A stretch of 45,335 nt of DNA from Phycisphaerae bacterium (GTDB lineage Bacteria > Planctomycetota > Phycisphaerae > Tepidisphaerales > Tepidisphaeraceae), in the NCBI GenBank assembly GCA_014379105.1, contig JACMML010000189.1, forward strand, positions 1 through 45,335, given 5' to 3'. Each line of letters starts with the position of its first letter. Position 1 is the stretch's first letter. The notes under the pieces were generated by a model, which worked only from the letters and a program-made list of their open reading frames with translations, was not told where the DNA came from and did no database searches. This document shows, piece by piece, positions 12,364 through 23,343 of this stretch. The translations under genes were made by a program, and so were the position numbers.

Positions 12364-12427
12364 GTGGCATGGGCTTCCCCCATGTTTGATTTAGAACTTG
12401 AAGACATGGGCTGGAAGCCCATGCCAC
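12364..12427. repeat. Imperfect palindromic intergenic repeat (copy 2)
   Basis: The outer arms GTGGCATGGGCTTCC and GGAAGCCCATGCCAC are perfectly complementary, with an extra CATGGGCT half-site between them. It is a relative of the element at 2899-2958. It lies about 125 bp upstream of the PEP-CTERM gene start, between that gene and the pseudopilin. The rest of 12239-12528 shows no gene. Confidence 0.75.
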
Positions 12428-12528
12428 AATGGGTTGGCAATCGGTCTTCGGGGCGTCAACAGCGCCGGTAGTGTTCAGATCTCAGCATTTTCATTCTCCG
12501 GTAATCCTTTGGACTTTCTCTTGACCCA

Positions 12529-17734: not shown

Positions 17735-18268
17735 TTACGCCATCCGACGACGCCGCAACAGCGCACCTGCGCCGACACCCAGCAGGCCTAGCATCGCGGG
17801 CTCGGGAAGCGGGCCGGTCTGGCTGCTGAAGCCCGTGTCGATCAGTGCATAGTCGCTGCCGTTAATCGTCCCGTCGTAGTTCACGTCGCCGTAGAACCAG
17901 CCTGTGCCGCCGCCGGAGAAGCCCGTGTCCGCCAGCGCGTAGTCGCTGCCGTTCACGACGCCGTCCAGATTCGTGTCACCACGCCAGGTGTATTTGACCA
18001 GAACAGATGTCGTCGGATTCGCGACCGTGAAGCCTGAGAGGCTGGTGACCTGTCCACCGGTCGTGCTGCCGTCGATCACACCGAGCATCGTGCCGTTCAA
18101 TCCCACGCCGCCCGCGCCTTGCGCGATCACTTCCGCGGAGGTGATCCCTTTACCCGTACCGCCGAAACCCAACAGCGGCAGGCCGAGCTTCACCTTGTCC
18201 AGAATGGACGTGTAGACCGTCGAGCCGCCGGTGTAATCCACGATCAGGTCGTTGTCGTGCAGTTCAAG
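17735..18268 (-). repeat. Shared PEP-CTERM 3' cassette, copy 3
   Basis: About 534 bp, nearly identical to the copies at 8327-8863 and 14163-14696. In this copy the LPEPAMLGLLG tail has Gly where the others have Ser. Confidence 0.8.
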
Positions 18269-21148
18269 CTTGCTGGTGCCGGTGATCGTCAGGGCTTTGG
18301 TGTATGAGACGCCCGTTGCCCCGCCGCTGAGAGCAATGGTCATCGCGCCGCCGCTGGTGAGATTGATCGCATTCTGCCTCACCCCCAGCGAAGCGTTGAA
18401 CGTCCCACCGCTGACGGTCGTGGTGCCGATGCCTGTGACGGCACCGACGCTGGTGGTGGCGGCGGAATTGAAGAGGCCGTCGTTTTGAACCGCGGCCGCG
18501 GTGAAGGTGCCGCCGGCGTTGTCGATCTTGCCGTTTGGGCCAATCGTTGTCAGCCCGGTGCCCGTCTGCAAGGTTCCGCCGTTTTGAATATTCACCGAGC
18601 ACGCAACGGAGCCGGTTCCAAGTGCCATGCCGAATGCCCCGTTCAGCGTGATCTTCGAGCCGGCGCCATTAACGTTGACGACCCCCGCTCCGGGTCCACC
18701 GGCGATACTGCCAAGCTGCAGAAAATTTGATGTCAACTGAGCGCCCGTCGTCACGTTTAACGTGCCCATCGAACCCGGAGTACTGGACCGTGCCAGGCCG
18801 AGAAAAGCGCCTCCAAAATTTGCAGTCGCCTGATCAGCGATCGTCACCGTTGCGCTAAACCCAAATAGCCCGATGTCGTTACCCGTGCTTGCAACGGTAT
18901 TGGTATTCAGGCTCGACCCGGGACCGGTGACGATGAGTGTTCCGCCGCCACTGGCGCGTGCCACGCCAATGTCGTTTGTGGCCGAAAGAGTGGAGCCACT
19001 CTGTATCGTGAAGACGCCGCCATTCTGGACGTAGAAGCTGCCGGTGTAACTGACTTGTGCCGCGTTGCTGGCGGTGAGATTCTTTCCTGCGGCGAAATTT
19101 AACGTGCCCGAGGTATGCAACAGCTTGCCGCCGTCGATGGTGACATCGCCGTTGGCGTTAAACGTGCCGCCGGCGATGTTGAGGGTGCCGGTTTTTTGGA
19201 TCGTGGTTGTGCCGGTGCCGGTGCTATAGACGCCGGAGGATTGCAGATTGATCGTCCCCGTCGTCGTTGAGGTCAGGCCGCCGATCAGAGCGGTGGTTGC
19301 GCCAAGTCCCGTCAGACTGGATCCCGAGCCGTTCACCGTGATGACGGATGCTCCCGCGGCAGTTGCACCACCAAGGTGCATATCATCGTCCGCATTTGGT
19401 TTCTGCCCGTAAACAACGTGCCCGCCGGTCGTGATGTTCACGGTGCAATTTCCAGGACTGCCAATACCAAAATCAACTCCTGCATTGAACGTGGCCGTTG
19501 CCTGATCGGCAACAGTCATATTCGCTGTGCTTGGCCCAATACCTGGAACGAAGCTCGCTGCGCCCGTATTGCTGGAAAAGGTGGATCCGAGCCCGGTGAC
19601 GACCAAAGTACCGGTCGAGTTCAAGCCAACGGCAAAATAATCAGTCGCCGAAAGAGAGGAACCACTCTGAATAGTAAAGGTACTTCCATTTTCGAAGATA
19701 TATCCGCCAGTGAAACCAACCTGAGCACCGTTGCTGGCGGTGAGATTCTTTCCTGCAGCAAGATTGAACGTGCCGGAGGTATGCAGCAACTTGCCGCCAT
19801 CGAGTGTGATGTCGCCATTGGCGTTGAAGGTGCCGCCGGCAATGTTGACGGTGCCGGTCTTCTGGATCGCGATCGCGCCAGTGCCGGTGGTGAAACTGCC
19901 AGCGGATTGGATGTTAATCGTTCCGACACTCGTGGATGCGCCTGCTCCACCGAGCGTGAGGGTCGATGCACCGGCTTGGGTAATCGCAGAACCGCTGCCA
20001 TTGACCGTAATTGTTCCAGTGCCGGCCGAACCGGTCGCTGCGGATATATTGTTGCTATTGAGTTTTCCTTGTGTGTTCACAATCAGTGTGCCGGTACTGG
20101 CAGGATTGTTGTCAAAAGCGAAGCGGAGGGTATTGGAGTTGTAGGTGGCGATCGCCTGATCACTGACCGTCAAACTCCCCGAAAACCCATTGAAACCATA
20201 CGAGGAGTTCACCGAAGGTGTTCCGGCGGCGGAAAGGGATGAGCCCAGACCGGTGACGACCAGACTTCCATTGCCGAAAAAGCCTGCGCCGACGAAATCC
20301 GTGGCAGAGATGGATGAGCCGGACTGGATCGTCACCGTGCCGCCATTCGCCAGCGAAAATCCGCCAGTGAAGCTCACTTGGGCGCTATTGCTGGCGGTGA
20401 GATTCTTGCCGGCAGCGAGGTTGAACGCGCCGCTGGTGTGCAGCAGCTTGCCGCCATTGAGCACGACATTGTTGTTGGCGTTGTATGTCCCGCCTGTGAT
20501 ATTGAGCAGACCGCCGGATTTGATTGTGGTCGTGCCGGCATTAGTCATCGTACCCGAGGCGACATTGAAGTTGGCGGTATTGGCGCCGACACCGGTGGTG
20601 CCAAAGGTCAGCGAACTGATCGTCGCGGTACCCGTCGGCGTAACGCTGCTGAGGGTCATCGCGTCGGCTGGGCCGACGAGGTCGGTCGTCCAAGGGCCGA
20701 TAGCGTTGTTGCCGAACTCGATCAGGTTAAGCCGGTAGTTGCCGGACGCCAGCGGATTTGGGTTCAGCGCTGTACCATTTACCTGCGTCCAGGTCAGCAA
20801 TGAATCGAACACGCTGCTAGTAACCTGATCATCATTAAAGCCGCGGGAGAAGTTGCCGCTATCGAACAGTTCAAACACCGAATCGATGCCCGATGCATTG
20901 GCAGGAATTCCTTCGCCAGCGGCATTCGTTCCGCCATTACGGGAGAAGGTCTGGAACTTGAGCGTCTCCCCACTGCCGACACTGCGACTGAGGTTGATGC
21001 CGAAGTCTTCCTTATCACCTGTCGTGGCGAAGTTGCCCTGAAACGAAAAATACGCCTGCTGCGCCATCGCCGGCGACGCGGTGCCGATCGCGAGCAGCAC
21101 CGCCGCCATCCCGTGGCGGTTTCCGAACTTGATATTTTTCCCAGCCAT
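17735..21148 (-). CDS. Secreted PEP-CTERM protein with long internal tandem repeats
   Basis: A 1137-residue protein. A signal peptide ends near SPAMAQQ. The N-terminal ~140 residues (GGTNAAGEGIPANASGIDSV, FELFDSGN, ASGNYRLNLIEFGNN) resemble the FDxxLxLF/GxYxLxLxxxxN domain seen in DVUA0089-type PEP-CTERM proteins; that match is by eye. Three long repeats follow, each containing GGKLLHTSGxxNLAAGKNLT, then xxxGSxLSATD and VTGLGSxxS, which suggests a repetitive beta-solenoid. The shared calcium-loop cassette and the LPEPAMLGLLG anchor close the protein. ATG 21148 is chosen because it directly precedes the signal peptide; the frame is open 34 codons further but that adds a non-signal-like leader. 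Surface or matrix role inferred. Confidence 0.9.
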   Translation of the reverse strand: MAGKNIKFGNRHGMAAVLLAIGTASPAMAQQAYFSFQGNFATTGDKEDFGINLSRSVGSGETLKFQTFSRNGGTNAAGEGIPANASGIDSVFELFDSGNFSRGFNDDQVTSSVFDSLLTWTQVNGTALNPNPLASGNYRLNLIEFGNNAIGPWTTDLVGPADAMTLSSVTPTGTATISSLTFGTTGVGANTANFNVASGTMTNAGTTTIKSGGLLNITGGTYNANNNVVLNGGKLLHTSGAFNLAAGKNLTASNSAQVSFTGGFSLANGGTVTIQSGSSISATDFVGAGFFGNGSLVVTGLGSSLSAAGTPSVNSSYGFNGFSGSLTVSDQAIATYNSNTLRFAFDNNPASTGTLIVNTQGKLNSNNISAATGSAGTGTITVNGSGSAITQAGASTLTLGGAGASTSVGTINIQSAGSFTTGTGAIAIQKTGTVNIAGGTFNANGDITLDGGKLLHTSGTFNLAAGKNLTASNGAQVGFTGGYIFENGSTFTIQSGSSLSATDYFAVGLNSTGTLVVTGLGSTFSSNTGAASFVPGIGPSTANMTVADQATATFNAGVDFGIGSPGNCTVNITTGGHVVYGQKPNADDDMHLGGATAAGASVITVNGSGSSLTGLGATTALIGGLTSTTTGTINLQSSGVYSTGTGTTTIQKTGTLNIAGGTFNANGDVTIDGGKLLHTSGTLNFAAGKNLTASNAAQVSYTGSFYVQNGGVFTIQSGSTLSATNDIGVARASGGGTLIVTGPGSSLNTNTVASTGNDIGLFGFSATVTIADQATANFGGAFLGLARSSTPGSMGTLNVTTGAQLTSNFLQLGSIAGGPGAGVVNVNGAGSKITLNGAFGMALGTGSVACSVNIQNGGTLQTGTGLTTIGPNGKIDNAGGTFTAAAVQNDGLFNSAATTSVGAVTGIGTTTVSGGTFNASLGVRQNAINLTSGGAMTIALSGGATGVSYTKALTITGTSKLELHDNDLIVDYTGGSTVYTSILDKVKLGLPLLGFGGTGKGITSAEVIAQGAGGVGLNGTMLGVIDGSTTGGQVTSLSGFTVANPTTSVLVKYTWRGDTNLDGVVNGSDYALADTGFSGGGTGWFYGDVNYDGTINGSDYALIDTGFSSQTGPLPEPAMLGLLGVGAGALLRRRRMA
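19065..20520 (-). repeat. Three tandem units of ~660 bp inside the PEP-CTERM gene
   Basis: The plus-strand string TTGCTGGCGGTGAGATTCTT recurs at 19065, 19731 and 20388, spaced 666 and 657 bp. Each copy is followed by about 120-160 bp of closely similar sequence encoding the GGKLLHTSG..NLAAGKNLTASN block. The units mark internal duplication of the coding sequence; exact outer boundaries were not resolved. Confidence 0.75.
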
Positions 21149-21621
21149 TTTGCCGTCCCGTGCCGGAGTTTGATCGCCGGCTTCTGCAAGAAGTGTCCCC
21201 GGTGCGCCAGCGGTTCCCGCCGATGCACGCGGCCAACATATAGCCGTCACGACACAGAAACGAGGAAATACTGCGTTTGCGGTTTAATCTTTTTGAGTTC
21301 TTTACATCCCGAGTCAGGCAAGCGTCCAACAGCACGTCGCCCACACACATCCGCTTCGGCCTCCCGTATCCCTTTTGAGACCGCAAAGTGAGCCGTCTTA
21401 TTTTGATAGGACATATCGAAACAATCAGACGCGACATAAGCCCTGTATTAAAGCACGTTTATGATCAATATTATCGGATCGCGTAGTCATTTCGATGTGT
21501 TGGGGGTCTTTTTTTGGCTTCGTGCCGACTTGAATCATAAGTCTATCAATGTGCTGCGCTTACGGTCCAAATATCGGATATTCCCGGACGTGGTATGCGG
21601 ATCGCTTTGATGTTTCTCGAG
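21149..21621. other. Divergent intergenic region, no gene recognised
   Basis: About 470 bp between the divergently transcribed PEP-CTERM gene and the receiver-like gene. It is more A+T-rich than its surroundings, with a T7 run at 21509-21515. It must hold promoters for both directions, but I could not place them with confidence. ORFs here lack start signals. Confidence 0.5.
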
Positions 21622-22156: not shown

Positions 22157-22339
22157 ATGTCGGTACAGGATTCCTATGTGGATCGTCGTTCCAAGGGTCA
22201 GGTTTTCGCAGGCACCGCCGGCGACCAGGGCATCGCCCGGACGTTGGCCGCCAAGGCGAACGCGGTACGTCGATTAGAGCGTCAGGGGCGTCGAGCAAAG
22301 ATTTCCGCTCGCATGAGCAAGAACTCCTGGGCGGCCTAG
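22157..22339 (+). CDS. Small basic orphan protein (60 aa)
   Basis: I do not recognise this protein. It has 60 residues and is strongly basic, with Arg/Lys clusters (DRRSKGQ, AVRRLERQGRRAK) in what look like one or two amphipathic helices; there is no membrane segment, Cys or signal peptide. The gene looks real because an AGGTGAG sits about six bases before ATG 22157 and because small genes are packed head to tail here on one strand. A T8 run precedes it at 22134-22141. Its charge is compatible with nucleic-acid binding, and a structured RNA lies about 370 bp downstream, but the link is only positional. Confidence 0.65.
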   Translation: MSVQDSYVDRRSKGQVFAGTAGDQGIARTLAAKANAVRRLERQGRRAKISARMSKNSWAA

Positions 22340-22395
22340 CCCGGCATTGGTAGTTACGGGCGCACCCCCCGTTCATCGGGTGTGAGTTGATTGAT

Positions 22396-22419
22396 GTCGC
22401 ATCAGTTCTCTGATGTGAC
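22396..22419 (+). promoter_or_regulatory. 10-bp hairpin just upstream of small ORF
   Basis: GTCGCATCAG and CTGATGTGAC pair over ten consecutive positions (one G-U) around a TTCT loop. It lies six bases before the AAGGA of the next gene. There is no U-run, so it is a leader stem rather than a terminator. The G-U pair favours the plus strand. Confidence 0.6.
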
Positions 22420-22436
22420 CACGAAAGGAACGTGTT

Positions 22437-22682
22437 ATGAGCCAGATCTTAGATAGAGGCGTTCGGTCGTCACCGAAAATCGCCACAGCGACGACCAAGT
22501 CCGTCGCCCAGTTCGAGGCGGCCCGTCGTAATCGCATGCCGTCGCATGCAGCAAGCCACGGAACCGTCGTCTCCCTCAAGGATTCGACCCCGGGCGCGAT
22601 GCTGATCGGCATGGCGATCGCCGAAGCGATCTTCGTGGAACCGCTTCGTTCATTCCGCCGCAAGCTCCGTCGGGCCAGCTAG
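22437..22682 (+). CDS. Small basic orphan protein (81 aa)
   Basis: Unrecognised protein of 81 residues. The N-terminal half is polar and Ser/Thr/Arg-rich (RSSPKIATATTKSVAQFEAA). The C-terminal half holds a short hydrophobic stretch, GAMLIGMAIAEAIF, followed by a basic end (RSFRRKLRRAS). This could be a membrane-touching or amphipathic helix with a positive tail. An AAGGA eight bases upstream of ATG 22437 supports the start. It follows the 60-residue protein by about 100 bp and precedes the structured RNA directly, so the RNA may be part of the same transcript. No function can be named. Confidence 0.65.
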   Translation: MSQILDRGVRSSPKIATATTKSVAQFEAARRNRMPSHAASHGTVVSLKDSTPGAMLIGMAIAEAIFVEPLRSFRRKLRRAS

Positions 22683-22704
22683 GCCTGACGCACTCGCGAG
22701 TAGT

Positions 22705-23231
22705 TCCAACCGGCGTGGTTGAGAGCGTGTGAGGAGGACAAAGGCATTGGCGTGCCGATGTCCGTAAGTTGGTGTGCCGGATTGGCGTCCGGAGCACCAG
22801 GCGTCGAAAGACGGCGTGGAGAAGTAGGGTGCGAGGACGGCGTCGTATTGGCGTACGACATCGGCCAACAATCGGTGAAGCTGGATTGGCGTCCGGTCTT
22901 CATCAGGGTTCGCACTCGAGATTCGCGCGTGGATCGAGATGTAAGGGAAACGTCGTTGGGCAAACGACGAAGGCAAATTTAGATCGATGATTCCGATTGG
23001 CGTCGGGATCAACAGATAAAAGGTCGCTGGCGCTGACTTAAGCGTGCCGGTGACGACAGGGTAAAAGATCGCCGGCTTGCCGCGTGGGGCAGACGGCGTG
23101 ACCGTGACGACGTATTGGCGTACGAAGTCACAAACGGTAGTCGCGGCGATTGCGTATTCGAGCTTCGGCACGATCGCGAAGTCGCCGCATACAACCCGCC
23201 CTCCTGGCGAAAGCCGGGAGGCGGGTTTTTT
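22705..23231 (+). ncRNA. Candidate novel structured RNA with repeated UUGGCG-loop hairpins
   Basis: The octamer AUUGGCGU occurs at 22746, 22781, 22847, 22885, 22996 and 23114. In every case UUGGCG is a hairpin hexaloop closed by A-U, with differing but complementary stems: GGCA/UGCC, CCGGA/UCCGG, GUCGUA/UACGAC, CUGGA/UCCGG, GAUUCCGA/UCGGGAUC and CGUA/UACG. Three hairpins (22736-22763, 22770-22799, 23104-23131) share one plan: a 5-bp outer stem (GGACA/UGUCC, UGGUG/CACCA, GUGAC/GUCAC), a 2x2 internal loop and the inner stem. A seventh, 23021-23039, has loop CUGGCG; another, 22707-22721, has loop GGCGU. Further helices are CGUC-GAAA-GACG (22802-22813), a 7-bp hairpin at 22951-22969, 23070-23098, and a closing helix 23143-23149/23182-23188. 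U-G pairs in the 22876 and 22989 hairpins, GNRA loops and the U-run terminator all indicate the plus strand. The 5' end is not defined; no known class recognised. Confidence 0.85.
23193..23231 (+). terminator. Strong intrinsic terminator of the structured RNA
   Basis: A stem of roughly 18 pairs (AACCCGCC... with ...GGCGGGTT, one bulged C) is capped by a GAAA tetraloop and followed by T6 at 23226-23231. The minus strand has no matching U-run. This fixes the 3' end and strand of the upstream RNA. Confidence 0.93.
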
Positions 23232-23326: not shown

Positions 23327-23343
23327 ATGACACTCGTTGTCAT
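23327..23343. promoter_or_regulatory. Dyad upstream of znuC-like gene, candidate metal-regulator site
   Basis: ATGACA and TGTCAT are perfect inverse complements with a 5-bp spacer, 24 bp before ATG 23367. Importers of this family are usually repressed by Zur, MntR or similar proteins through such sites. The sequence does not match a specific regulator consensus that I can name. Confidence 0.45.

Follow-up and report, generated by a model that had tools for sequence, protein, structure and literature searches.

A six-hairpin array with one repeated loop, apparently an undescribed structured RNA known from a single Phycisphaerae genome

Does the half kilobase that lies between a group of small-protein genes and a metal-type transporter in this Phycisphaerae genome specify an RNA, and what could an RNA with so many copies of one loop be for? 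We approached this question by a computational analysis of the window (the whole stretch of DNA analysed, 45,335 nucleotides), following up an earlier note which had proposed that the plus strand specifies a structured RNA of an undescribed kind. For this one genome the proposal is well supported by covariation within the molecule, by the lack of an Rfam match and by the lack of a homologue for a minus-strand protein, and the locus apparently holds a real, undescribed structured RNA, known from one genome.

Fold of the element and pairing of its stems

The 527-nt stretch folds with a minimum free energy of about -240 kcal/mol and a z score of -6.96 against 100 dinucleotide shuffles, as compared to a mean z of -0.3 for 527-nt stretches across the window. 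The fold also has a clear strand bias: the energy is -239 kcal/mol for the plus strand and -179 kcal/mol for the minus strand, a difference of 60 kcal/mol in favour of the former. The plus strand had previously been chosen on the basis of GNRA loops, U-G pairs and the terminator, and both the strand energies and a terminator scan agree with this choice. In our view, the fold of the plus strand very likely has biological meaning. One other comparable stretch was seen in the window; it contains a long inverted repeat between genes (GTGGCATGGGCTTCC...GGAAGCCCATGCCAC, 12365-12432, z about -5.7 on the plus strand), which has the appearance of a terminator or of an intergenic repeat.

The element as a whole (22700-23231, plus strand, as are all of its parts) is a structured RNA or 3'UTR-like region of about 0.5 kb that extends approximately from a point just past the stop of an 81-aa gene to the U-run of a terminator, and is supported by the fold z score, the strand bias and the lack of an Rfam match. 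It is organized around six hairpins, H1 to H6, that present the loop UUGGCG. H1 (22736-22763) has a 5-bp outer stem, an AA/GA 2x2 internal loop and a 4-bp inner stem, with its loop at 22747-22752 (closing pair probability 0.964), and H6 (23104-23131) repeats this plan with a GA/AA 2x2 internal loop and its own loop at 23115-23120 (0.974). The plan had been attributed to three copies; it is exact in these two only, as H2 to H5 depart from it by mismatched positions (1x1), a bulged base or an uninterrupted stem. H2 (22769-22800) carries a 1x1 mismatch in its stem and has its loop at 22782-22787 (0.979), H3 (22835-22866) has its loop at 22848-22853 (0.981), H4 (22874-22904) contains one bulged U in its stem and has its loop at 22886-22891 (0.979), and H5 (22988-23011) is a continuous stem of 9 bp, including a U-G pair, with its loop at 22997-23002 (0.952). 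H3 and H4 are enclosed in a multibranch domain (22827-22917), which is closed by a stem of 8 bp (22827-22834 with 22910-22917). For all six hairpins, the ensemble of the full-length RNA gives the closing A-U pair a probability of 0.95-0.98 and leaves the central UGGC of the loop unpaired; a wobble pair between the outer U and G of each loop is possible in the predicted fold.

Other hairpins are found around and between these six. H0 (22707-22721, CAACC-GGCGU-GGUUG) is drawn from the sequence and its local fold, which makes the 5-nt loop GGCGU proposed at 22712-22716 plausible. A GNRA hairpin (CGUC-GAAA-GACG, 22802-22813) occupies the interval between H2 and H3, and a linker hairpin with a different loop (CGUCGUU-GGGCA-AACGACG) is predicted at 22951-22969. 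A variant loop, CUGGCG (23027-23032), had been counted with the array, and we rejected it as an array hairpin: it is buried inside an 11-bp hairpin (23023-23054, local fold) and its claimed closing pair has a probability of 0. Accordingly, the figure of at least eight loops presenting GGCG holds for the six hexaloops and the one GGCGU loop, and not for the rest. The element ends with a long imperfect hairpin (23143-23188, inverted repeat I1 and fold) placed directly 5' of an intrinsic terminator with a GAAA loop followed by a U-run (23193-23231, terminator scan and fold; the scan itself marks 23200-23231).

The sequence AUUGGCGU is found six times on the plus strand within 22746-23121, in line with the six occurrences in about 380 nt described before; at the DNA level the copies of ATTGGCGT start at 22746, 22781, 22847, 22885, 22996 and 23114, all on the plus strand. 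Over the whole 45 kb and both strands, there are 10 copies of ATTGGCGT as compared to a chance expectation of 2.3. We then counted the contiguous base pairs that close each UUGGCG of the window as a hexaloop. All six array copies hold the hexaloop position, with 4 to 9 contiguous pairs, as against a stem of at least 4 bp in one of the 68 copies outside the array, that one being of 4 bp and none longer (hypergeometric p about 4e-8). When the six hairpins are aligned in six rows, double changes are found at 7 of the 9 stem pair positions, and 88.9% of the cells are paired, compared with 58.7% when the letters of the 3' arms are shuffled (none of 500 shuffles reached the observed value). The covariation signal is lost when the pairing partners are slid along the alignment, and of the 720 permutations that match 5' arms to 3' arms, all but the native one fall short of the pairing observed. 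These results bear out the earlier observation that the stems differ and still pair, giving covariation within one molecule; since the copies sit in one molecule, this is covariation among paralogous hairpins and not among species. Compensatory differences at 7 of 9 positions, together with arm-specific pairing, indicate that the stems are kept for pairing and the 8-nt loop element for its sequence. A fixed loop on varying paired stems is the pattern expected of a loop that is read by a partner, which is what the array suggests.

These same data bear on the opposite reading, that there is no RNA element here and that the region reflects chance, a minus-strand gene or a repeat acting at the level of DNA, which we regard as extremely improbable. 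A 173-aa minus-strand open reading frame (22650-23171) does run without a stop through the greater part of the array, with a codon score (-0.009) not clearly worse than those of the small plus-strand genes. However, it has no Pfam match and no homologue among 60 relatives, on which grounds we dismissed a minus-strand protein gene; the plus strand is much more stable and the G-U pairs fall on it; covarying stems with a fixed loop would be senseless for a coding frame or a double-stranded DNA site; and the hairpin statistics (1 of 68, 0 of 500, 1 of 720) oppose it.

Relatives, known RNA families and genomic setting

If the structured RNA is real, does it belong to a known family or recur in other genomes? 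A scan of the 45 kb with Rfam 15 gave no match at the gathering score, the best matches below threshold being unrelated, and the earlier description of the element as likely undescribed therefore stands. We built a covariance model, R1, from the six array hairpins, which themselves score 26.7-37 bits with it; in the remainder of the genome (which is 81% complete) no match exceeds 18.9 bits, and the matches inspected there fall in possible open reading frames. With R1, no hairpin cluster was found in 25 other genomes of the same family, and 397 class and 392 phylum genomes (partly overlapping, about 750 further genomes), run with stricter, lossy filters and as partial samples, gave isolated matches and no clusters. 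Among these isolated matches, we noticed lone hairpins of 11-12 bp, perfect or near-perfect, with the AUUGGCGU loop in other class or phylum genomes (L213, L214, L216, L218 and L347, the last near position 1511 of the strand that matches); several are apparently intergenic and one is a terminator with a U-run. Such isolated hairpins could be due to chance or to a favoured stable loop.

Searches by sequence and by pattern led to the same picture. The only blastn match to the element among 60 relatives, 54 nt in G027, lies inside a protein-coding frame and was rejected, as were pairs of ATTGGCGT in same-family genomes, which are single chance matches (the one inspected was coding), and a triple TTGGCG pattern, which is too common in class genomes to inform. 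Triple-motif scans revealed no array with divergent stems among the matches listed for genome contigs, nor in viral contigs; the hairpin clusters that they returned (for genome contigs, among the matches listed) consist of tandem repeats whose stems are the same or nearly so. A DNA search of phages and plasmids matched nothing, and a search for any same-loop array with at least four distinct stems, over 1.5 Mb drawn mostly from this genome, G013 and G009, found none besides this one. Based on the absence of a relative in the Rfam, family, class, phylum, viral, phage and plasmid searches, the array is apparently lineage-specific on present sequence evidence. The comparison with homologues that the earlier note had suggested matched none in the family, class and phylum samples, a result that counts neither for nor against the proposal, and the covariation described here is that among the copies within one molecule.

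The array can also be compared with systems that repeat a structural unit. REP and BIME elements are hairpin arrays downstream of genes, with conserved stems and copies dispersed over the genome; in our array, by contrast, it is the stems that differ and the loop that is constant, and the strong R1 matches in this genome are confined to this single locus. LhrC and the cuckoo RNAs are multi-loop antisense sRNAs whose repeated C-rich single-stranded loops bind Shine-Dalgarno-like sequence; they have in common with the array the repetition of identical loops, but UUGGCG would not bind such a sequence. The STAXI motif is a structural unit that is repeated, usually three times, in noncoding RNA (Weinberg et al., 2010, PMC2864571). 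Its units are pseudoknots, whereas those of the array are simple hairpins with a fixed hexaloop.

A further possibility would be a scaffold or cage-like RNA, comparable to GOLLD, ROOL or OLE, in which the hairpins organize a ribonucleoprotein or an RNA-only multimer and titrate nothing. Large ornate RNAs do form multimers (PMC12286853), and the array resembles them in its size of about 0.5 kb, its multibranch domain and its GNRA loops. Nevertheless, GOLLD, ROOL and OLE are conserved across many species, and the array, which is known from a single genome, does not show the deep conservation across phylogeny that characterizes such RNAs; it also has no sequence match or Rfam model match to these families. 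We therefore find this reading distinctly unlikely.

The genes around the array offer another explanation. Upstream on the plus strand are genes for proteins of 145, 60 and 81 aa, none with a significant Pfam match, the first of which may, by eye, be a degenerate receiver-like protein. The 60-aa protein (22157-22339, plus strand) is very basic (pI 11.7), with a homologue 69% identical in the nearest relative, G009, and weaker ones in G016 and G011; the 81-aa protein (22437-22682, plus strand) is also basic (pI 11.8), with a homologue 53% identical in G009. An arginine-rich segment, RRLERQGRRAK, was noticed in these basic proteins (22157-22682) and is kept in G009; Pfam assigns the proteins to no family. 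The array starts 18-25 nt past the 81-aa stop on the same strand, a promoter scan found no promoter-like site in the gap, and a terminator closes the unit, so that the array could be the 3' end of the small-protein operon mRNA, where it would guard against 3' exonucleases, with loops that are alike by local duplication. Short direct repeats common to the hairpin copies fit with this, and some of the hairpins are probably related by old duplication. However, duplication alone leaves the compensated stem changes and the eight identical loop bases unexplained, and in G009 the same 60-aa and 81-aa genes are followed by a single ordinary terminator-like hairpin, without an array. We judge this explanation unlikely.

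Downstream of the array is a metal-type ABC transporter (ABC_tran, ABC-3). Its genes have their own promoter-like site, which overlaps a palindrome (ATGACA-CTCGT-TGTCAT, 23327-23343) that looks like a metal-repressor operator and was not seen at the equivalent place in relatives. The array is therefore probably not a leader of the transporter, a role that we set aside also because the terminator lies before these genes. On the minus strand of the window, we also noted a repetitive, secreted-type protein of 1171 aa (17735-21250) with a dockerin domain (Pfam match) and, read by eye, a PEP-CTERM-like tail, both of which agree with a planctomycete origin.

Possible partners of the repeated loop

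What, then, could read the loop? The best explanation that we can offer, which we hold tentatively and as something short of probable, is that the array is a multivalent decoy or platform RNA for a loop-specific RNA-binding protein. For the array RNA we infer transcription, protein binding and titration. From its plus strand the locus would yield a structured RNA of about 500 nt that ends at the intrinsic terminator and is either a separate sRNA or a long 3'UTR of the upstream small-protein operon. This RNA would display six copies of one hairpin, defined by a closing A-U pair and the loop UUGGCG, on unrelated and well-paired stems; a sequence-specific RNA-binding protein would read the loop together with the A-U closing pair, and several copies of the protein would load on one RNA, which would serve as a decoy or as an assembly platform in the manner of CsrB or RsmZ for CsrA, with another loop specificity. 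The presence of six loop copies in one RNA suggests multivalent binding, and the exposure of all six loops in the full-length ensemble argues for this reading. Candidate binders exist, as the genome encodes a canonical CsrA, a divergent 196-aa tandem CsrA-like protein and the two small proteins of pI 11.7-11.8, of which the 60-aa protein is a possible RNA-binding partner. Several findings go against it. A second strong UUGGCG hairpin was not found in the genome (the best scores 18.9 bits, and those inspected are in possible open reading frames), so that the protein to be titrated has no obvious mRNA targets. The array is also lacking in G009, which encodes both basic small proteins, in G016 and G011, which encode relatives of the 60-aa protein, and in relatives with divergent CsrA-like proteins. 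In addition, the family, class and phylum samples gave no homologue, and the interval between the 81-aa gene and the array showed no promoter-like site.

A likeness to CsrB, as decoy or scaffold, had been suggested from the start, and the anatomy agrees with it: CsrB/CsrC, RsmX/Y/Z and the array have in common many hairpins, one repeated loop element and an intrinsic terminator, and in Csr sites, as in those of the array, the loop has six nucleotides, of which the third and fourth are GG. The recognition element does not. Csr decoy RNAs carry multiple single-stranded GGA motifs, placed in the hairpin loops or in the intervals that separate them. In a SELEX study, the CsrA consensus was RUACARGGAUGU, with GGA invariant among the selected ligands and mostly placed in six-nt loops in the form A-R-G-G-A-U (PMC7652899; see also PMC4005645). 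The array has a C after GG where the Csr sites, A(N)GGA, have an A, its closing pair is A-U where that of Csr is C-G, none of its six hexaloops contains GGA (the sole ANGGA of the whole element is at 22944), and the Rfam models of CsrB, CsrC and RsmX/Y/Z have no match in it. As no hexaloop carries GGA, the array is not a Csr RNA.

This leads to a more specific version of the protein-binding reading. CsrA is present in all 26 genomes of the family (G000:C242 is the canonical copy here), and several of them, including this one, also encode divergent CsrA-like proteins that carry an insertion around an RGxxxGGPxDG-type motif and could be a paralogue family of RNA-binding proteins. In this genome it is the 196-aa tandem form (G000:C298:15981-16262, minus strand, locus L362), with relatives at loci L364, L366, L368, L371 and L373. 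The array could be a dedicated decoy of this protein, which would read GGC where CsrA reads GGA; we find this improbable, and the protein is a candidate partner only, a UUGGCG array being absent from the relatives that encode such proteins. If true, the two would form an RNA-protein pair that has diverged away from the Csr code.

Finally, it could also be that the loops kiss another RNA, for example the anticodon loop of tRNA-Gly(GCC), and that the array takes up that RNA as a sponge. UUGGCG can form five Watson-Crick pairs and one G-U pair with U33-G34-C35-C36-A37-A38 of the genome's own tRNA-Gly(GCC), whose anticodon loop, UUGCCAA, is the sole one found to match all six loop bases, five of them by Watson-Crick pairing; the predicted duplex has an energy of -6.7 kcal/mol, and six-nt loops fit kissing. 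Against this, 6.5% of all hexamers would pair just as well with one or another of the anticodon loops of this genome, which makes the match weak evidence, the H0 loop is unfit for pairing with this tRNA, kissing does not need a conserved A-U closing pair, and we found no precedent in the literature for tRNA sponges that act by anticodon kissing. We regard a tRNA sponge as highly doubtful.

Significance of the array

In conclusion, our results emphasize that, where comparative material is lacking, covariation within a molecule can expose a structured RNA from one genome alone. A literature search for UUGGCG hairpins returned nothing from bacteria, and UUGGCG would thus be a recognition loop without a description in the literature searched. 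Because the loop is identical among the copies and the stems are not, a single hairpin used as bait could name the partner cheaply. If the array is transcribed and bound, it would extend multivalent decoy or scaffold RNAs beyond the groups in which these are best studied.
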